Below, piece after piece: positions 33,474-43,631 of a DNA stretch of 64,000 nt; the first letter of the stretch is position 1; the number at the start of each line of letters is the position of its first letter. This DNA comes from Pseudomonadota bacterium (GTDB lineage: Bacteria; Desulfobacterota; Desulfobulbia; Desulfobulbales; Desulfurivibrionaceae), in contig JAHJRQ010000010.1 of assembly GCA_018830485.1 (NCBI GenBank), forward strand, positions 1-64,000. Reading direction: 5' to 3'. The position numbers were made by a program, and so were the translations under genes. The notes below the pieces were generated by a model. That model saw only the letters and a program-made list of their open reading frames with translations. It was not told where the DNA came from and ran no database searches.

Positions 33474-35987
33474 TTAATGGCTTCTGTTGACGGTCGGCGG
33501 ATTGAAAAAGCGCAAACGCAGGGCATTGGAAACCACGGAAACCGAACTCATGGCCATGGCCCCGCCGGCGATCATGGGGTTCAAGGTCGGCCCGCCGAAG
33601 AGGTACAAAACCCCGGCGGCCACCGGAATGCCGATGATATTGTAGATGAAGGCCCAAAAGAGATTCTGCTTGATATTGCGCATGGTGGCGCGGCTCAAGG
33701 AAAGCGCGGCGAGCAGACCGGAGAGGTGGCCCTTCATCAGTACGATATCGCCGGACTCGATGGCGACGTCGATGCCGGTGCCCATGGCAATGCCGACATC
33801 CGCCTTGGCCAGGGCCGGCGCGTCGTTGATGCCGTCGCCCACCATGGCTACCCGGAATCCCTCTGCCTGGAGGGCCGCCACCTTTTCCACCTTCTGGTCC
33901 GGGAGCACCTGGGCAAAGACCTCGCTGATCCCGGCCTGGGCAGCAATGGCCCGGGCGGTAATCTCATTATCGCCGGTAAGCATGAAGATCTTGATTCCCA
34001 TTCCCTGCAGAGCGCTGATGGTCGCGGGCACCTCTGCCTTCAGCCGGTCGGCGATGGCCAACAGGGCGATAAGCCTGCCCTCGGCCGCACAGTAAAGCGC
34101 GGTCTTGCCGTCCCCGGCAAAACCGTGGGCGATTTGCTCAACCGCCATGCCAAACCCGGTCAGATTCTGCTCCGCCATGAACTCCCGGTTGCCGAGCAAA
34201 ATATTCTGCTCGGCAACCATGGCCCGGATACCCCGGCCAGGAACCGCCTCGAAATACGAAGGCTCGGCCAGGGTCAAGCCCTTTTCCCTGGCCGCACTGA
34301 CAATGGCCTCGGCCAGGGGATGTTCCGAGCCGCTCTCGGCGCTGGCAACCAGGAAGAGGATATGGCCGGCATCCATCTCCGCGGCGATCGGTTGCAGGTC
34401 GGTCAACTCCGGACGGCCATGGGTCAGGGTTCCGGTCTTGTCAAAAACCACGGCATTGATCTTCTGCGCCATCTCCAACGCCTCGCCGCTTTTCACCAGC
34501 ACCCCCAACTGAGCCCCGCGCCCGGTGCCGACCATGATCGAGGTCGGGGTGGCCAGCCCCATGGCGCAGGGGCAGGCAATGACCAGCACGGCGATGAAGA
34601 TCCGCAGGGCAAAGGAAAACTCGGCCTGACCGATGAAATACCAGGACAACCCGGCGAGAATGGCAAAAACGATGACAGTGGGAACGAAATAGAGGCTGAT
34701 GCGATCCGCCAGGTTGGCGATGGGCGCTTTGGAGCCTTGGGCCTCGCGGACCATGGTGATGATCCGGGCCAGCACCGTGTCTTGGCCCACCTTCTCGGCC
34801 CGCATCTGCAATAAGCCGTTTTTGTTCAAGGTGGCGCCCACCACCGAATCGCCGGCCTCCTTGGAAACCGGCAGGGATTCGCCGGTGAGCATGGACTCGT
34901 CCACACTGGAGCGGCCCTTGATCACCGAGCCGTCCACCGGGATGCGCTCACCCGGCTTGACCAGCAGGATATCGCCGGCCTCGATCTCGGCCACGGGAAT
35001 CTTTTTCTGCTCCTCCCCTCCATCCACCAGCAAGGTGGCCTCCTCCGGCGCCAGGGCCATGAGCTGGCGGATGGCGTCCGAGGTGCGCACCTTGGAGCGG
35101 GCCTCCAGGTACTTGCCCAGGGAAACCAGGGCGATGAGCACCCCGGCCGACTCAAAATAGAGATCCATGACCCTGGCCATAACCTCGATGCCCAAGCCGA
35201 TCTCGATCAGGTTCCAGGTGCTGTAGACAAAGGCGGCCCCGGTGCCGACGGCGATGAGCGAATCCATGTTGGGCGCGCCGCGCCAGAGAGCCGGAAAACC
35301 GAGCTGATAAAAATTCCGGCCCGACCACATGATCGGCAGCACCAGAAGAAACTGGACACAAGCGAAGGTGAACGGCGCGTGATGGGGGGCGAGAAACACG
35401 GGCAACGGTAGCCCGGCCATCTCACCCATGGAAAGAAGCAGCAGCAAGACGGCAAAGGCAAAGGCCGGATAGAGGCGTTTTTCCATGGCAACAAGCCGGA
35501 TGAGGGCCTCCTCCTGCTGCCGCGTAAAATCAGATCCTCCAGCCGGGCCAGCCACCTTGGCCTTGAAACCGAGGCGCTCGATACCCTCGCGGATCTGCCG
35601 CTGGCTGACAACCTTCGGGTCAAAAACCACCATTGCCGATTCGGTGGCGAGATTCACCTGCATACTCCGCACCCCGGCCATGCCCCCCACCACCTTTTCG
35701 ATCCGGGCGGAGCAGGAGGCGCAGGTCATGCCGGTGATGGCCAGAGCCAGCCTGGCTTCCTTCTCCGGCAGCACCAGCTCGAAACCAAGGGTCTTGACGA
35801 TTGCGGCGATATCGGCAAGGCTGAGCCGGCCCGGCTCCCACTCCACCTCCAGGCTCTCGGCGGCAAGGTTCACCGCTGCCGCCGCAATGCCCTCGGTGGA
35901 ACCAAGCACCTTTTCGATGCGGGAGGAACAGGATGCACAGTGCATGCCCCGGATGGCGACCCGCTGCTTGTCGGTTGACGGTGTCAT
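33474..35987 (-). CDS. copA: copper-translocating P1B-type ATPase
   Basis: The product has two N-terminal heavy-metal domains (GMHCASC near 14-20 and GMTCASC near 77-83), about eight transmembrane helices, the TGES phosphatase loop, the CPC metal motif ([11 protein letters not shown]), the phosphorylation motif DKTGTLT and the hinge [13 protein letters not shown] with these metal domains indicates Cu(I) export. ATG 35987 follows GGAG; the frame to 36026 is a less likely extension. A copper chaperone is divergently encoded upstream. Confidence 0.94.
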
Positions 35988-36063
35988 GTGTACATTGCTC
36001 CGGTATTGATTGCTTTTCCCTTGCACAGTTAAATTGCGCAGACGTGTAAAAAATCATTTGCGC

Positions 36064-36776: not shown

Positions 36777-36805
36777 TACACCATTTTTGCTTTATTCTGT
36801 ATAAT
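36777..36805 (+). promoter_or_regulatory. putative promoter of the Slam-like/FecR/cyclase operon
   Basis: TACACC (36777-36782), 17 bp, then TATAAT (36800-36805). The -10 is perfect and the -35 is poor, as in activator-dependent promoters. It lies 54 bp before the first ATG. Confidence 0.45.
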
Positions 36806-36858
36806 TTATCATCCTACTAACCTTTTGGCCTTTTCGCAGGCCGTTTCAGGTACTCGTC

Positions 36859-38184
36859 ATGGCACAACTGAGATTTTTCGCTTTTGTCTTCATTGCCCTG
36901 CAACTTTCCTTCACGCCAATGGTCGGCGCTGCGGAGATGTCCGCGTCCTTTTCCTTGGGCAAACAGTATTTTGACCAGGGCCGGTTCGAGGAAGCGTACA
37001 CCGAGCTGCACAAAGCCTTTCTTCAGGATCCGGGGAACCAAGACCTCAATTTCGATCTTGGCCGAGCCGCATATGAAACCGGTCGATTTGAGGAAGCTAT
37101 CATGGCCTACGAAAGGGTGCTCATTGCCAATCCTGAGGCCAACCGGGTCAAGCTGGAAATAGCCCGGGCCAACCTGCAACTGGGCTCACGGGAGATAGCC
37201 AAGCAGTATTTCAAAGAGGTTCTCGCCACCAATCCGCCGGAGCAGGTATGGAAGAACATAGAAAAATTTCTCGCTTCCATTGAGGAGGCGGAACAAAAAC
37301 ATTTTGTCAACGGCACCTTCACCCTTGGTCACGCCTGGGATGACAACGCACGATCCGCCCCGGTGAGCGACCGGATCTCAGCCGGTCTTTTTGAATTTCA
37401 GCTCACCGGGCAAAGCGCCAGCCCCCAAAGCGACCAAACCAACAACGCAACCCTGATTCTCAATCATATCTATAAAAACGAGGAATACCCCTACCTGTGG
37501 AAAACCGCGGCAACCTCCTACAACGCTCTGTACCAAAGCCTGTATGATCTTGACGTGAACTATCTGGGATTGACCTCCGGCCCGGTTTTCCAGCAAGACA
37601 ATTTCGTCTGGGACCTGCAGGCGCTCGTCTCGCACATTGACGTCGAGCATGACCGCTACCAAGGCGCTTTTGGCGCGGCCTCCTCTCTAACCTATCTTTT
37701 CTCAAAGAATATCATGGGCACCGTCGCCATCAAAGCCGAGGAAAAAAACAACTATGTCGACCCTGGCCGGGACGCGCTCAATCTCATTCTTTCCGCGGGA
37801 CCGATTCTGCTTGTTGACCAGAATCGCCTGAGCCTCCTGTTCAACAAAGAAAAAGAAAACGCGGACAACGAAGTCAACAGCTACGATCGTTTCGGCTGGA
37901 AATTTCGCTACGACCGCAACCTGCCCTACGACTTTGCCGCTTTTGCCGGGCTTGGCTTCACCATCACCGACTATGACGCCCGGCATCCTTTCTTCTCGGC
38001 CTACCGCAACGACGAGGTTCAGGAACTTACTGCCGGGGTCTCCCGGCTGCTCTGGCAGGATGCGGCGAAAAACCAGGCACTCATCATGCAATTGGGCCAC
38101 ACCTATACCAACTCGGAATCCAATATTGATCTGTACACCTACAGAAAAAATGTAACCGAACTCAACCTCACCGTGAGTTTTTAG
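36859..38184 (+). CDS. Slam-like outer-membrane protein: TPR plus beta-barrel
   Basis: The 441-aa product has a signal peptide (cleavage near GA-AEM at 24-25) and a periplasmic TPR region (about 28-130; YFDQGRFEEAYTELHKA and similar). The C-terminal barrel of about 290 residues begins GTFTLGHAWDDN and ends LNLTVSF. TPR followed by a single barrel of this size is the architecture of Slam (surface lipoprotein assembly modulator, DUF560), which moves TbpB-type substrates across the outer membrane. The next gene encodes a protein with a TbpB-like C-terminus, which strongly supports the idea. Other TPR-barrel proteins are possible. It heads a four-gene plus-strand run. Confidence 0.7.
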   Translation: MAQLRFFAFVFIALQLSFTPMVGAAEMSASFSLGKQYFDQGRFEEAYTELHKAFLQDPGNQDLNFDLGRAAYETGRFEEAIMAYERVLIANPEANRVKLEIARANLQLGSREIAKQYFKEVLATNPPEQVWKNIEKFLASIEEAEQKHFVNGTFTLGHAWDDNARSAPVSDRISAGLFEFQLTGQSASPQSDQTNNATLILNHIYKNEEYPYLWKTAATSYNALYQSLYDLDVNYLGLTSGPVFQQDNFVWDLQALVSHIDVEHDRYQGAFGAASSLTYLFSKNIMGTVAIKAEEKNNYVDPGRDALNLILSAGPILLVDQNRLSLLFNKEKENADNEVNSYDRFGWKFRYDRNLPYDFAAFAGLGFTITDYDARHPFFSAYRNDEVQELTAGVSRLLWQDAAKNQALIMQLGHTYTNSESNIDLYTYRKNVTELNLTVSF

Positions 38185-38297
38185 AAGCCATAACGAAATA
38201 ACCATTGCCCTCCATTTCGTTGCGGCTCCTTATGCTGTTCAGAATGTTTCAATTGTGCTGTTGTTCGTGAACAGCGGCTTAAACAGCGAGGACAATC

Positions 38298-40403
38298 ATG
38301 AAAAAAAATATCTCCTTCACAACCATTATTGTGCTCCTCCTGCTGTGCATGGTCGCGCCGATTTCCGCCTCTGGCGCCGAACCGCAAGCCGTGGCCACCG
38401 TTGTAGCCCTCAGGGGCGCCGTGGTTGCCCAGAACAAGGCCGGCGCAAGCCGCAACCTCAGCATCAAGAGCCAAATCTTCCAGGAAGATGAGCTCAAAAC
38501 CGGTCCAAACGGCCAACTGCAGATCATATTCACCGACAATACCATCATCAGCTTAGGCCGCGGAAGCGAAATGAAAATCGCCGAATACCGCTGGCAGCCT
38601 GAGCGGAAAGATGGCGCTCTGAGAACCCAGGCAAAGGAAGGCACCTTCCGGGTGATGGGCGGAGCCCTTGCCAAGGATGCTCCCCAAAACGTCAAAACCG
38701 AAACTCCCACCGCCACCATCGGCATCCGCGGCTCCATGTACACCTTCAAGGCGACAAAGGACTCCCTTTCCATCGTTTTCCAGGGAGGCAAGGGCATTGA
38801 AATTTACAACGATCTCGGCAAGGTAACCATTACCGTTCCAGGCTTCGGCACCCGGGTTATGCTGAATGCCCCGCCGGCAAAACCTGCCAAATTCACGGAA
38901 CAGGACATCAAAGATCTGAACAGCCAGCTTAATGGCGGCGGAGCGAACGGCAATGGAGCGACCAACGGTGCCGGCCCCGGCAGTGCCAGCGGCGAAGGCG
39001 AAACAGAAAGCACCTCAACCGGCACGGACACGACCACCAGCACCCAGCCTCTCGCAGAAACCATTCTGCCTGCCCCGGCCGTGCCTCCCCCCCCGGTCCT
39101 GCCGCCGGCCAATGAACTGCCCACCGCCCCAGCCTTCCCCCCACCCCCAGCCCCCCCGGGCGATGGCATTTATGCTTTCAAGGGCGGCCTGGGCGGAACT
39201 TCGACAAAAACCGACGGTTCCACGGATACGTTTATCAACGATCTTTACTTGGGGGTGAACTGGTATAACCGCAAAATCTTCGGTGTTGCCTTTGATAATA
39301 CAGTCGAGGATGGCAAGCCGGTTTTTTTCTTCGGCTCGGTGAATGGTTCCACCGTTTCCGACATCAAGATTTTTGGTGCGGACAAGGGAGGCTCTTACCA
39401 AAACGACGACGACGCATTTATCAGCGGCAGCGGCTCGGGCCTCTTCACAGGCAGTGCCTATGATTTTTTCAGCTTCATCGCGACAGGAAGCTCCTTTCTT
39501 ATCAAAGGGTCGCCCACACAAACCTTGCTCGACTCCTGGACCGTTGCAGGCGGCGCCCAACAGGTGGTTGGCGAAATGGTCCCGACAGCCCCCAAGGGAG
39601 GCTCGGAAATCTGGAGTGGTTTTGTGGTGGGGGTCAGTGAAAACATGAATGACCGGCCCACCGACCGCCACCTCATATACAACACGAACCCGAACAGTTT
39701 CACCATGAACATCAACAAGGACGCAGGCACTATCCTCGGCACTCTGACCACCGACAGCAATATCGGCGCCGGCGAAGCGAACTACAATATTTCCGGCATG
39801 ACCGTGGGTGGCTCCTACGGCTCGGTATACCTCAACGACCAGCTTTTAGCTGCTCTGTTGGGTGGTTCTGCCGGCATCACGGCAAAAGAGTACGGCAACT
39901 ATATGGTGGTCGATCCGAAAAACCAGATCTCCCCCTATTTCACGTGGGGCTATTGGGAGGTTGCCTACGTCGATCCCACAAACTCCACTATCCAGCGCCA
40001 GATCCGGGTGCCTGAGTCCTTGTGGCTGGCGGGAAAACCTTCGAATAATTCGCTGATCAAGACGGGTTTTGTTGGGACTTACAACGGTAAGGCGTTCGGC
40101 ACCATGATCAACACGAACGACACCACCCAGATTACTCAAGTGTCCGGCTCAATGAATCTCACGGCCGATTTCGTCTCCACGCCCAGCATCACCGGCAGCC
40201 TGGCCTTTACGAACGGCCCCACTCTAACCATTAGCGGCGGCGCCTTTTCTGCCGACAGTTTGACCAACCAGTTCTCGGCAGGACTCACGGGAGGAAACAT
40301 CCAAGGCGCTTTTTACGGTCCCAATGCCGAGGCCGTGGGCGGCAACTTTTACAGCCTGACTGACGACAAACAGTACATCGGCATCTTCGGCGGCAACCGG
40401 TAA
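38298..40403 (+). CDS. FecR-domain protein with TbpB-like C-terminal barrel
   Basis: The 701-aa product has a signal peptide (cleavage near SASGA, 27) and a FecR domain at about 33-150 (VVALRGAVVAQNKAG, SLGRGSEMKI, ATIGIRGSMYTF). A Gly/Thr then Pro-rich linker spans about 213-288, and a beta-rich region runs from 290 to the end. The last residues (GAFYGPNAEAVGGNFYS, then IGIFGGNR) follow the closing pattern of transferrin-binding-protein-B barrels (FYGP.A.E.GG.F....G.FG..R), the part recognised by Slam. There is no consensus lipobox, so it may be secreted unlipidated. GAGGA precedes the ATG. A periplasmic sensing role is inferred from the FecR domain. Confidence 0.75.
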   Translation: MKKNISFTTIIVLLLLCMVAPISASGAEPQAVATVVALRGAVVAQNKAGASRNLSIKSQIFQEDELKTGPNGQLQIIFTDNTIISLGRGSEMKIAEYRWQPERKDGALRTQAKEGTFRVMGGALAKDAPQNVKTETPTATIGIRGSMYTFKATKDSLSIVFQGGKGIEIYNDLGKVTITVPGFGTRVMLNAPPAKPAKFTEQDIKDLNSQLNGGGANGNGATNGAGPGSASGEGETESTSTGTDTTTSTQPLAETILPAPAVPPPPVLPPANELPTAPAFPPPPAPPGDGIYAFKGGLGGTSTKTDGSTDTFINDLYLGVNWYNRKIFGVAFDNTVEDGKPVFFFGSVNGSTVSDIKIFGADKGGSYQNDDDAFISGSGSGLFTGSAYDFFSFIATGSSFLIKGSPTQTLLDSWTVAGGAQQVVGEMVPTAPKGGSEIWSGFVVGVSENMNDRPTDRHLIYNTNPNSFTMNINKDAGTILGTLTTDSNIGAGEANYNISGMTVGGSYGSVYLNDQLLAALLGGSAGITAKEYGNYMVVDPKNQISPYFTWGYWEVAYVDPTNSTIQRQIRVPESLWLAGKPSNNSLIKTGFVGTYNGKAFGTMINTNDTTQITQVSGSMNLTADFVSTPSITGSLAFTNGPTLTISGGAFSADSLTNQFSAGLTGGNIQGAFYGPNAEAVGGNFYSLTDDKQYIGIFGGNR

Positions 40404-40430
40404 CGGCATGACAAACAGCAACCGCACGAC

Positions 40431-42677
40431 ATGAATATCCGCCACCGGCTCAAAACGTTCTTCACCCTCTCCCCCTTCAAGGTCGGCTGCCTGGTTACCC
40501 TGGCAGCCGTCCTGCTTTTTGCCTCCTTTGGCCAGCAAAAACCGGAGATTCTCGAAACCCTGGACAACCGGCTGACCGACACCATGTTCCGCTGGCGGGG
40601 TACGGTCAAACCCAGCCAGCCCATCGTCATTGTAGATATCGACGAGAAAAGCCTGCGGACAATTGGCCAATGGCCCTGGCCGCGCAACACCGTGGCCAAG
40701 ATGGTTCACAATCTCAGCACAGGCGGGGCAAGGGTTATCGGTCTGGATATCGTTTTTGCCGAGGCTGACCGCACCTCGCCGAAAAACTTTGTCGACGAGT
40801 TGCAGCAGCTTTTGCCGATGCAGCTCCCGCCGGAAACCATGGCGGAACTGAAAGCAAAGGAAAGCCTGGATCACGATCTCGCCCTGGGCAAGGCTCTGGG
40901 AGCAACGCCCTCGGTGTTGGGCTATGTCTTCCAGACCCAGGATGACGGCCTGAAAAACCATACGGACCTCCCATTCCCCTCCGGCACCACTCGCCTTGTG
41001 CCTGACACCCTGCGCTACGATGATATTTCCCTCTTCCGGGCCTATCGGGCCATCACCAACGTAGTGGCCGTGTCCCAGGGGCGGAGCGAGGGCTTTTTCA
41101 ATGTGTTCCCCGATGCCGCGGGCACGGTGCGCAAGGTTCCGCTCTTCATGATGATGGACAACATCCCCTACCCATCCCTGGCCCTGGAAATGCTGCGCAT
41201 CGGCATCGGGGCGCAGGAGACGACCATCCAGGTCTCCCGGCAGGGGCAAACCTACCCCAGGGACGTCCTCGGCGTTGAATTGGGCACAACCTTTATCCCC
41301 ACCGACGAAAAAGGCCAGATCACCGTAAATTTCCGGGGGCCGGGTCAGACCTATCCCTACCTTTCCGCCGTGGACATCCTTGCAGGCAAGAATCTCGATC
41401 GGGTACAGGGCAAATATGTCCTGATCGGCACCTCCGCAGCAGGCCTTCTCGATCTCAGGGCCACGCCCTTTTCCAACATCTATCCGGGGGTGGAAGTCCA
41501 CGCCACCATCATCGACAATATCCTGAGCCGCGACCCCTTCACCCACGACATCTTCACCGAAATCGGCATCATCTACGCCCTGCTGCTGATCGGCGGCCTG
41601 GGATTAAGCGCTCTCCTCGCCTATGCCACCCCTTTGATCGGCGGCCTTGGCGGCCTTCTCCTCATCCTGGCCACCCTGGCCGGCAACTATTTTTTCTTTT
41701 TCAGCCAGAACCAGCTTGTCGGCCTCTCCTATCCGCTGCTGACCATCCTTACCCTCTTTCTGGTGGTCACCCTGTTCAACTATTTTTTCGAAGGGAGGCA
41801 AAAACGCTTCATCAGCTCGGCCTTCGGCCACTACGTTTCCCCCCAGATCGTGCACCAGCTCATGGAGCACCCGGAAAAACTCTCCCTGCAGGGGGAGCAG
41901 CAGAACCTCACCGTGCTCTTCAGCGACATCAAGGGCTTTACCACCATCTCCGAAAAAATGACCTCCGAAGAGCTTGGCCGATTCATGAATGAGTATCTCA
42001 CGGCCATGAGCCATATCGTTTTGCAACACAAGGGGACGGTTGACAAGTTCATCGGCGACGCGGTCATGGCCATCTGGGGCGCCCCCCTTGAGGATGAAGA
42101 CCACGCCGCCAACTCTGTGCGGGCGGCGTTTATGATGATGGCAAAACTCAAAACACTCCGGGCGGATTGGCAGAAACGGGATTTACCCGAGGTGGATATC
42201 CGCATCGGCATCAACACCGGGGTGATGAGCGTGGGCAACTTTGGCAGCGACCAACGCTTTGACTACACGGTCATGGGCGACAACGTCAACCTTGCTTCCC
42301 GGTTGGAAGGCGCGAATAAAGCTTACGGCACCAACATCATCATCTCGGAATACACCAAAGATGCGCTGGGAGAAGGATTTTACTGCCGCCTTCTCGATCT
42401 GGTCCGGGTTAAGGGCAAGGAAATGCCGGTGCGAATATACGAGCCCCTCTGCGAGGGCGAACCGGAGCCGGAGCTGAAAAAAGAAACAGAGGCCTTTACC
42501 GAGGCCCTGCGCCATTACGCAAACCGTGAATTTCAAGAGGCGACGGAAATCATCCTCGCCCTCAACACGACAACACGCTTAAAAATTTACGACCTCTATC
42601 TCGATCGACTCGCCCATTTCGCTATCAATCCGCCGCCGGACGATTGGGACGGCGCCTTCACCTTTACCACTAAATAA
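40431..42677 (+). CDS. CHASE2-domain class III adenylate cyclase
   Basis: The 748-aa product has one N-terminal helix (18-35), an extracytoplasmic CHASE2 sensor (about 40-370), three helices (376-397, 401-424, 430-452) and a cytosolic cyclase domain. Catalytic features are intact: metal Asp499 in FSDIKGF, the second metal Asp in GDAVMAIWG, substrate Lys in VDKFIGD, Asp in YTVMGDNVN, and the Asn/Arg pair in NLASRLEG. The Lys/Asp pair predicts ATP to cAMP. It begins 27 bp after the FecR-type gene. CHASE2 cyclases next to FecR-domain genes are a recurring pair, so signal transfer between the two is likely. Confidence 0.9.
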   Translation: MNIRHRLKTFFTLSPFKVGCLVTLAAVLLFASFGQQKPEILETLDNRLTDTMFRWRGTVKPSQPIVIVDIDEKSLRTIGQWPWPRNTVAKMVHNLSTGGARVIGLDIVFAEADRTSPKNFVDELQQLLPMQLPPETMAELKAKESLDHDLALGKALGATPSVLGYVFQTQDDGLKNHTDLPFPSGTTRLVPDTLRYDDISLFRAYRAITNVVAVSQGRSEGFFNVFPDAAGTVRKVPLFMMMDNIPYPSLALEMLRIGIGAQETTIQVSRQGQTYPRDVLGVELGTTFIPTDEKGQITVNFRGPGQTYPYLSAVDILAGKNLDRVQGKYVLIGTSAAGLLDLRATPFSNIYPGVEVHATIIDNILSRDPFTHDIFTEIGIIYALLLIGGLGLSALLAYATPLIGGLGGLLLILATLAGNYFFFFSQNQLVGLSYPLLTILTLFLVVTLFNYFFEGRQKRFISSAFGHYVSPQIVHQLMEHPEKLSLQGEQQNLTVLFSDIKGFTTISEKMTSEELGRFMNEYLTAMSHIVLQHKGTVDKFIGDAVMAIWGAPLEDEDHAANSVRAAFMMMAKLKTLRADWQKRDLPEVDIRIGINTGVMSVGNFGSDQRFDYTVMGDNVNLASRLEGANKAYGTNIIISEYTKDALGEGFYCRLLDLVRVKGKEMPVRIYEPLCEGEPEPELKKETEAFTEALRHYANREFQEATEIILALNTTTRLKIYDLYLDRLAHFAINPPPDDWDGAFTFTTK

Positions 42678-42689
42678 TAGGCATACACC

Positions 42690-43631
42690 ATGACGAACTC
42701 CACCCCCTACGACCTCATCATCATCGGCGGCGGCCCTGGCGGCTATACCGCTGGCATCTATGCCCAACGGGCCGCCCTGAAAACACTGCTCATCGAAAAA
42801 GGCATCCCCGGAGGCCAACTCAACAACACCGACGAGGTGGAGAACTGGCCCGGCACCGAAAAGATCAGCGGCGCGGATCTGGCCGTGAAATTTTCCCAGC
42901 ATGCCGCAGCCTATGACCTTGAGGTGATGAATCGCGAGGCAGTTGATATTGAACCCGGGCGGGATCACCACACCGTCACCCTGGACAGCGGCGAAACCCT
43001 TGCCACCCACGCGATTATTCTTGCCACCGGCGGCAGCCCGAAAAAGCTGGGCATTCCCGGGGAAGACCAGAATTATGGCCGGGGGGTTTCCTACTGCGCC
43101 GTGTGCGACGGCTTCTTTTTCCGCGACAGGACCGTGGTGGTGGTGGGCGGCGGCGACAGCGCCCTGGAGGAATCCCTCTATCTGGCCAAGCTGGCCAAAC
43201 AGGTGTACATCGCCCATCGCAGGGACGCCTTCCGGGCCGGGATGATCCTGCAAAAAAGGGTATTGGCTGAAAAACGGATCACCGTGCTCTGGAACACGGT
43301 GCTGGCGGAGATCCAGGCGGATGGTCAGGGGGTGAACGGGGTGATCACCAAGAATACCGTGGATGGAACAACCGCCCCCCTTGCCACCGACGGGGTCTTC
43401 GTATTTATCGGCTTTGAGCCGAACAATTCCCTGGTTCCGGCGGGAACCAAGATGAATGCCAACGGCTATGTAATCGCTGACGACAAATGCGAAACCAATA
43501 CTCCAGGCATCTTTGTTGTTGGGGATCTCAAGGAGAAATACGCCAAGCAGATCGTCACTGCCGCGGCGGATGGCTGCACCGCCGCCCTGGCCGCGGCCCA
43601 TTACGTGGAGGACAAAAAGGGCGGAGAATGA
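42690..43631 (+). CDS. trxB: thioredoxin-disulfide reductase
   Basis: The 313-aa flavoprotein has the FAD motif GGGPGGYTAGIYA, the redox-active pair CAVC (in YCAVCDG), the NAD(P)H motif VVGGGDSALEE and a C-terminal FAD motif GIFVVGDL. It reduces thioredoxin at the expense of NAD(P)H. It starts 12 bp after the cyclase gene with a weak ribosome-binding site, so it may be read from the same transcript. No thioredoxin gene is adjacent. Confidence 0.92.
   Translation: MTNSTPYDLIIIGGGPGGYTAGIYAQRAALKTLLIEKGIPGGQLNNTDEVENWPGTEKISGADLAVKFSQHAAAYDLEVMNREAVDIEPGRDHHTVTLDSGETLATHAIILATGGSPKKLGIPGEDQNYGRGVSYCAVCDGFFFRDRTVVVVGGGDSALEESLYLAKLAKQVYIAHRRDAFRAGMILQKRVLAEKRITVLWNTVLAEIQADGQGVNGVITKNTVDGTTAPLATDGVFVFIGFEPNNSLVPAGTKMNANGYVIADDKCETNTPGIFVVGDLKEKYAKQIVTAAADGCTAALAAAHYVEDKKGGE

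Follow-up and report, generated by a model that had tools for sequence, protein, structure and literature searches.

The locus described here raises the question of whether an outer-membrane exporter, the protein encoded next to it and an adenylate cyclase could form a single route by which a signal at the cell surface reaches cyclic AMP (cAMP). It lies in a stretch of 64,000 nucleotides (hereafter the window), corresponding to positions 1 to 64,000 of contig JAHJRQ010000010.1 (assembly GCA_018830485.1) from a bacterium of the Desulfurivibrionaceae, phylum Desulfobacterota. A first-pass annotation had pointed to three genes in a row, and the three open reading frames (ORFs) were confirmed at their positions on one strand; they are named here genes A, B and C, with product lengths in amino acids (aa):

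36859..38184, plus strand: gene A, 441 aa, TPR domain and 14-strand outer-membrane beta-barrel, probably of the SlipAM/DUF560 (type XI secretion) family
38298..40403, plus strand: gene B, 701 aa, FecR - linker - TbpB-like protein, probable cargo of gene A
40431..42677, plus strand: gene C, 748 aa, predicted CHASE2 receptor adenylate cyclase

These genes run head to tail, separated by 113 bp (A to B) and 27 bp (B to C), and a genome-wide search recovered the same order in loci of relatives. In the source genome (2.89 Mb in 26 contigs, 97.9% complete), a profile search placed the sole SlipAM match, the sole TbpB_B_D match and the sole FecR match above cut-off in this trio, a second FecR match falling below the cut-off. 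Since these only representatives are neighbours, their adjacency is beyond chance. The reading proposed here is that the trio constitutes a trans-envelope signalling module, in which gene A would export the lobe of the gene B product while the FecR domain would stay in the periplasm and report to the CHASE2 domain of gene C; it has, in our judgement, an even chance of being right.

Gene A as a candidate exporter and gene B as its predicted cargo

The Pfam scan, which covered seven proteins around the trio, detected in gene A TPRs and the SlipAM domain (PF04575, residues 223-437) at 32.9 bits against a cut-off of 22. SlipAM was matched by all 9 members of a first gene A alignment (E <= 0.01) and by 30 of the 38 members of a wider one (A3; E <= 0.001), the window included in both, and the TPR_Slam profile (PF24575) was matched at E <= 0.001 by 25 of these 38. 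An AlphaFold2 model built from 38 sequences, with a mean predicted local distance difference test score (pLDDT) of 92.9, contained helices at residues 29-144 and then 14 long strands plus a short hairpin, and delimited two parts:

36943..37290, plus strand: TPR part of gene A, taken as periplasmic (residues 29-144; TPR matches and model helices)
37300..38178, plus strand: 14-strand barrel of gene A (residues 148-440; model strands)

It has been reported that strand number separates the 14-strand DUF560 proteins from the 16-strand PgaA, and that NilB has a TPR N-domain of ~140 residues (PMC8406197; this paper and those cited below are used from their accessible parts). Gene A agrees with this description, having a TPR domain of ~140 residues before the barrel and 14 strands, not 16. 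When the model was ranked by VIA-align, the top places were taken by CymA (Z 21.8) and OmpG (Z 20.8), both of which are 14-stranded.

However, several observations weigh against this assignment. The SlipAM score is modest and spans profile positions 70-284 of 288, DUF2860 likewise exceeded its cut-off in gene A (26.3 versus 22.9), and the TPR_Slam match of gene A itself (26.1 bits, E 1.2e-5) stayed below the cut-off of 35.2. No Slam structure appeared in the best 50 matches of either fold list (Foldseek and VIA-align), an absence that excludes nothing. Moreover, Foldseek ranked BcsC first by E-value (2.9e-12) and PelB at rank 12, as might be expected if gene A were a TPR-porin of another family, e.g., one for polysaccharide export like BcsC, PelB and PgaA. 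Such an identity is very improbable in view of the strand number, the SlipAM match above cut-off and the VIA-align ranking, and no polysaccharide gene was found among the seven proteins scanned around gene A. Gene A is probably a member of the type XI secretion/SlipAM family, as was presumed when its Slam-like architecture was first noticed, and the export of a cargo is its predicted function.

The gene B product had been described as a FecR-domain protein closed by a TbpB-type motif, and both ends were recognised by Pfam, with FecR (PF04773, residues 64-160) at 28.5 bits against a cut-off of 24 and TbpB_B_D (PF01298, residues 594-701) at 35.5 bits against a cut-off of 26. In alignment A4, whose 19 members were selected because both custom hidden Markov models (HMMs) matched them, Pfam confirmed FecR in all 19 and TbpB_B_D in 18. 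The model of gene B (19 sequences, mean pLDDT 76.8) comprised a beta domain at residues 31-188, a beta-rich part at 291-579 and eight strands at 592-700, and the following regions were distinguished:

38388..38933, plus strand: FecR/cell-surface-signalling domain (residues 31-212; PF04773 and PupR fold match)
38934..39152, plus strand: predicted disordered Pro/Gly-rich linker (residues 213-285; pLDDT < 50 at 213-282 and composition)
39153..39653, plus strand: beta-rich region within the TbpB-like stretch (residues 286-452; strands and Foldseek TbpB matches over ~480-530 columns)
39654..40037, plus strand: handle/pedestal-like region (residues 453-580; model, with TbpB C-lobe/fHbp alignments starting near residue 435)
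40038..40400, plus strand: C-terminal 8-strand TbpB-type barrel (residues 581-701; PF01298, eight strands, NHBA Z 16.8, fHbp C-terminal barrel Z 14.5)

By VIA-align, residues 61-214 were superimposed on the PupR signalling domain 6ovk (Z 16.1, 2.5 A over 138 residues), residues 535-701 on NHBA and residues 438-701 on the TbpB C-lobe (Z 15.2), while fHbp scored ~15 and the matches included TbpB, fHbp and HpuA. In the Foldseek list, the first 25 PDB rows were TbpB or LbpB, and FecR-type proteins, NHBA, haemophilin, fHbp and HphA were among the next. The barrel expected at this C-terminus was therefore recovered by both profile and fold. TbpB-type barrels are common to the known and predicted cargoes of type XI secretion systems (T11SS), whose plan is an effector, a pedestal and an 8-strand barrel (PMC12282271). 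The SlipAM match and 14 strands of gene A, the effector-pedestal-barrel plan of gene B and its TbpB, fHbp and HpuA fold matches together led to the reading of the two as exporter and cargo, a predicted pairing that is well supported by domain content. On the other side, the predicted template modelling score of gene B was 0.60 and its whole-length TbpB alignments had a root-mean-square deviation of 16-18 A, so that the arrangement of its domains in the model is not reliable. Gene B is also not a member of the NCBIfam family slam_lipo (NF041636), which it matched with an E of 1.8e-13 and 51.1 bits, below the equivalog cut-off of 80. A retention module of RTX adhesins was considered as well and set aside, the matches being weak (NF033682, 30.8 bits versus 50; 5ix9, E 0.041).

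Slam systems are known, as the first-pass annotation noted, for surface lipoproteins that capture iron or haem. The N-terminus of gene B is hydrophobic and of Sec type by eye, and the N-terminal sequences of gene B homologues (29 rows, three of which, L041, L075 and L156, do not display a true N-terminus) contained no lipobox. Gene B thus does not qualify as a classic surface lipoprotein; no support was seen for an iron or haem function, although ligand residues were never sought. This lack of a lipobox would also fit a gene B product that is fully secreted and soluble, as haemophilin is, with gene C sensing the FecR domain of unexported gene B waiting in the periplasm, i.e., an export-status switch, and soluble T11SS cargoes do exist (PMC12282271). 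Such a switch was considered unlikely, as the export of a signalling domain would be wasteful. In both FecR and PupR, the FecR domain serves as a relay in the periplasm.

Recurrence of the trio and divergence of its lobes

The gene A alignment was scanned against 84,980 genomes, which returned at least 61 loci, 26 of which held a strong gene A homologue (E < 1e-50 by a custom HMM); the 35 weaker loci (above E 1e-50) were left out of the following counts. Among the matches listed, FecR followed gene A in 25 of the 26 strong loci, the degenerate L075 being admitted by hand, and the sole exception was L069, whose contig ends 185 bp past gene A. A TbpB end was listed in 19 of the 26 and a CHASE2 cyclase in 18. 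Seven of the eight cyclase-less loci (L056, L069, L070, L071, L073, L074 and L079) lie near a contig end, with at most 753 bp past the last gene (417 bp in L074 and 308 bp in L079), and the cyclase of L078 was found 2.3 kb away. The 26 loci are not independent, as L056 and L059 share one metagenome-assembled genome and several loci come from genomes already used in an earlier set.

In other phyla, gene A, FecR and a cyclase were found together in the Gammaproteobacteria L081 and L088, gene A with FecR and a TbpB end in the Campylobacterota L074 and L079, and a cyclase with gene A and FecR in the Campylobacterota L085 and L090. Consecutive genes on alphaproteobacterial plasmids (pAMI5 of Paracoccus aminophilus, and in Shinella) encode a protein with TPRs, a FecR protein and a CHASE2 cyclase, with SlipAM and TbpB matches below cut-off or missing. 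A tblastn search of plasmids with gene A gave one partial match. The FecR protein of the P. aminophilus plasmid locus, which has the trio order (L180:2401-8046), contains a collagen-like stretch below the Pfam cut-off.

The phylum was also surveyed from SlipAM, which was found in 42 places of 37 genomes (39 above cut-off) among 297 genomes; places at contig ends were kept and the same strand was not required. FecR was located within 5 kb of SlipAM in 29 of the 42 places, and FecR together with a CHASE2 or cyclase profile match within 8 kb in 20. Upon removal of the ten places that had fed the HMMs, these counts became 19/32 and 11/32, respectively. By chance, about 1 place in 100 would be expected to have FecR nearby, as estimated here from three FecR genes per 3 Mb; CHASE2 is itself common in the phylum (182 of 297 genomes). 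Pfam confirmed FecR in 8 of 10 proteins from SlipAM loci, the exceptions being that of L043, without any family match, and that of L176, a TbpB protein without FecR. These counts indicated that FecR, more than TbpB, is the usual SlipAM neighbour in the phylum.

Not all loci conform to the proposed module. In L068, genes A and B are present and no cyclase follows in 4.4 kb downstream. Among the matches listed for the weaker loci, FecR was present in 13 of 35 and absent from 22, and no FecR lies near the gammaproteobacterial gene A relatives L082, L086, L089, L091 and L094. In the survey, two of the 29 FecR calls were weak (E 2e-3), 13 of the 42 SlipAM places had no FecR nearby, and a TbpB barrel was near only 8 of the 42, or 2 of the 32 outside the HMM set.

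Some of the loci presented unusual arrangements. The FecR protein of L068 (6323-9886, 1187 aa) has two TbpB-type barrels by custom HMM. A 1100-aa VWA protein with a C-terminal TbpB-type barrel lies just upstream of an A-like gene (L042:152-3454) and is another candidate type of T11SS cargo. Between the A-like and cyclase genes of L043 (7117-8835), a FecR-like protein ends in a very long Asp-rich repeat, with no TbpB lobe, and beside SlipAM and CHASE2 in L166 (6223-7305) is a 360-aa FecR protein whose C-terminus is barrel-like by eye, with no Pfam barrel match. Gene A is split over two ORFs in G186 (L040), and G183 (L041/L075) carries a degenerate copy of the module. An apparent natural fusion of genes B and C, a 1230-aa ORF of G261 (L032/L057), was discarded because a run of N joins two genes, and the locus was still counted for gene A, FecR and the cyclase.

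The 19 gene B sequences differ most outside their FecR heads, with a mean pairwise identity of 56% in FecR, 34% in the beta region, 37% in the handle and 40% in the barrel, and the stretch from FecR to the beta region ranges from 34 to 464 residues. Two loci carry gene B in tandem (L053:2697-7342 and L059:9437-14256), and the FecR domains of the tandem copies are 86 and 88% alike, respectively (85-88% over all comparisons), while their lobes are 39-48% and 44-55% alike. In five pairs compared, FecR was 77-90% alike, and in the three pairs other than those of the window with copies of its own type the lobes were 39-65% alike. That FecR is alike even where lobe types differ would be expected if all heads serve one partner, and the tandem copies suggest several ligands reporting to one cyclase. 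However, when the window was compared with copies of its own type, FecR was 77-82% and the lobes 69-85% alike, which shows that the higher conservation of FecR is not universal. Four-fold sites are likewise more alike in the FecR domains of the tandem copies (46/69 and 49/75) than in the barrels (10/31 and 13/37), so that gene conversion or module exchange may have taken place. FecR heads were more alike within a genome (85 and 87%) than between the window and the matching copies (77 and 82%), but L054 and copy 1 of L059 are 90% alike, so that concerted evolution of the heads is not claimed.

Gene C and the proposed route to cAMP

Gene C matched the Pfam profiles CHASE2 (216 bits) and Guanylate_cyc (99.7 bits), and its closest solved structure was CyaB (3r5g, E 1.9e-41). 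Residues D499, K539, D543, T613, N620 and R624 were present in all 9 sequences of the alignment, among them that of the window. The combination of K with T marks the adenylate type of class IIIb cyclases. Two regions were delimited:

40506..41600, plus strand: predicted CHASE2 sensor region (CHASE2 profile; 19-residue hydrophobic windows begin at residues 10-18 and 373-437)
41895..42422, plus strand: class III cyclase domain with adenylate-type residues K539 and T613 (CyaB match and residues)

By its sequence, gene C encodes an adenylate cyclase with a CHASE2 domain and an intact set of catalytic residues, in agreement with its initial description, and cAMP is its predicted product. The genome encodes two CHASE2 proteins, the second one elsewhere (G000:C5:139312-140325), and has 7 cNMP-binding matches.

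In the proposed module, gene A would act as a type XI (Slam-like) outer-membrane translocon, through whose barrel the C-terminal TbpB-type lobe of gene B would pass to the surface. The N-terminal FecR domain would remain in the periplasm, the disordered linker being long enough to span the barrel, and would contact the periplasmic CHASE2 domain of gene C. The production of cAMP could then change when a ligand binds the surface lobe, or with the export state of gene B, and this cAMP would be read by CRP-type proteins. The relay part of this reading was drawn from the PupR-like fold of FecR, the precedent of NsrA discussed below, the pairing of FecR and CHASE2 with and without gene A, and the pattern of heads and lobes. 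In a more specific form, the translocon would have been turned into a receptor, the cargo being left threaded in the Slam-type barrel with its lobe outside and FecR inside, as one signal wire to the CHASE2 cyclase, and with FecR heads of one shared type bearing varied lobes; this form is advanced only tentatively.

A simpler explanation would be an operon of convenience, in which genes A and B are an ordinary exporter and cargo and gene C is merely co-regulated, with no physical contact. Gene C is tied to gene B by gene order and domain content alone, and a gene for a TrxB-like oxidoreductase (42690-43631) likewise starts 12 bp past gene C in this lineage. FecR and CHASE2 are, however, also paired where gene A is missing, as in Burkholderia, in which a FecR-LysM protein is encoded in an operon with a CHASE2 histidine kinase (PMC5192318), in the gene preceding cyaK of Sinorhizobium meliloti, and in the 30 best FecR loci, where CHASE2 or a cyclase was found within flanks of ~1.5 kb in 14, 9 of them without gene A (the gene A family occurs in 14 of the 30). 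Mere co-regulation was accordingly judged quite unlikely. The TrxB-like gene was found downstream of the module in the window and in L052, L054, L055 and L058, and in some other loci the available sequence stops earlier. Upstream of gene A, the divergent neighbour at 33474-36026 encodes a P-type metal ATPase with two HMA domains.

Should gene B be exported as the proposed module requires, FecR would join the head domains of cargoes, and a physical route would lead from a surface protein to cAMP, by which an exported protein may allow the cell to sense its environment. The arrangement reaches beyond the window, as SlipAM-type barrels in the phylum are mostly near a FecR gene, with a CHASE2 protein also close to about half of the barrels, and a few loci of Campylobacterota, Gammaproteobacteria and Alphaproteobacteria look alike.

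Comparison with known systems

The closest functional precedent comes from S. meliloti, in which NsrA is an outer-membrane receptor needed with the CHASE2 cyclases CyaK and CyaD1/D2 to convert a plant signal into cAMP (PMC7529298, PMC13001267). Its barrel comprises residues 600-1200, and the barrel loops are held to be the sole exposed part (PMC7529298). The gene that immediately precedes cyaK on pSymB (CP140955.1) is annotated as a FecR-domain protein of 1197 aa, and from its position and length we take it to be nsrA. This protein contains FecR, TPRs and a large C-terminal part, with no TbpB_B_D match. Its FecR domain is related to that of gene B (hhalign probability 97%); its barrel has no detectable relation to that of gene A (0.1%, from one sequence), which counts against the proposed module, and the presumed NsrA was dismissed as a homologue of gene A because TPRs alone align.

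These features bear on another explanation, in which gene A would itself be the receptor, as NsrA is, and gene B an adapter in the periplasm that binds gene A from the inside through its TbpB-like lobe, with no export. The union of FecR, TPRs and barrel in one chain in the presumed NsrA, the exposure of its barrel loops alone, and the many SlipAM-linked FecR proteins without a recognised barrel would be consistent with this. On the other hand, TbpB-type barrels are typical of T11SS cargoes, and the lobes of the tandem copies differ strongly, as exposed parts might. Altogether, a receptor role of gene A without export was regarded as unlikely, and the signalling module with an exported lobe was retained. 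Relative to NsrA and CyaK/CyaD, the trio shares FecR, TPRs and a large C-terminal part directly upstream of a CHASE2 adenylate cyclase, but these are distributed over two genes instead of one polypeptide, with a barrel not detectably related to that of the S. meliloti protein and a TbpB_B_D domain for which the latter has no match.

The pairing of a Slam system with a cyclase had been proposed as a new use of such exporters, which stands in part. In the main texts of PMC12282271 and PMC8406197, as far as accessible, the terms cyclase and CHASE do not occur, nor does cyclase in the accessible part of PMC5449769, and FecR has zero occurrences in the accessible parts of all three; in the literature searched, no paper was found that identifies the TPR gene as encoding an exporter of the Slam type or presents the FecR protein as the cargo. 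On the other hand, clusters of CHASE2, FecR and TPR genes and the coupling of NsrA to CHASE2 cyclases are already in print. In Campylobacterota, a cluster of a CHASE2 adenylate cyclase, a FecR-domain outer-membrane protein and a TPR protein was described, for which one pathway was suggested (PMC9239204). This cluster resembles the trio in bringing the three kinds of genes together, and differs in that it includes a phosphodiesterase, whereas the next gene downstream of the trio is TrxB-like (a phosphodiesterase was not searched for); in the accessible part of that paper, the TPR gene is not called SlipAM and the FecR protein is not called a TbpB-barrel cargo. The Burkholderia operon likewise places a FecR protein beside a CHASE2 receptor, but the latter is a kinase, the FecR protein has a LysM domain, and no exporter is named in the accessible text. 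The gene mtxA is also followed by a CHASE2 cyclase gene (PMC4439547).

Cell-surface signalling by FecI-FecR-FecA or PupR shares with the trio the fold of the FecR domain. It differs in that no anti-sigma part was found in gene B, where FecR and TbpB_B_D alone passed the Pfam cut-offs, and in that no sigma factor or TonB receptor was present among the seven proteins scanned. The known type XI systems (Slam, NilB) have in common with the trio the TPR domain with a 14-strand barrel and a neighbouring gene whose product ends in an 8-strand TbpB-type barrel, whereas the trio's cargo candidate carries an N-terminal FecR domain, which is not among the architectures in the accessible part of PMC12282271, has no lipobox and is encoded beside a CHASE2 cyclase. 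Thus, signalling from the outer membrane to cAMP through FecR and CHASE2 is in part already in print and the trio is a variant of it; what is new is that a Slam-type exporter and its probable cargo, a FecR-headed protein with a TbpB barrel, are combined with a CHASE2 cyclase.

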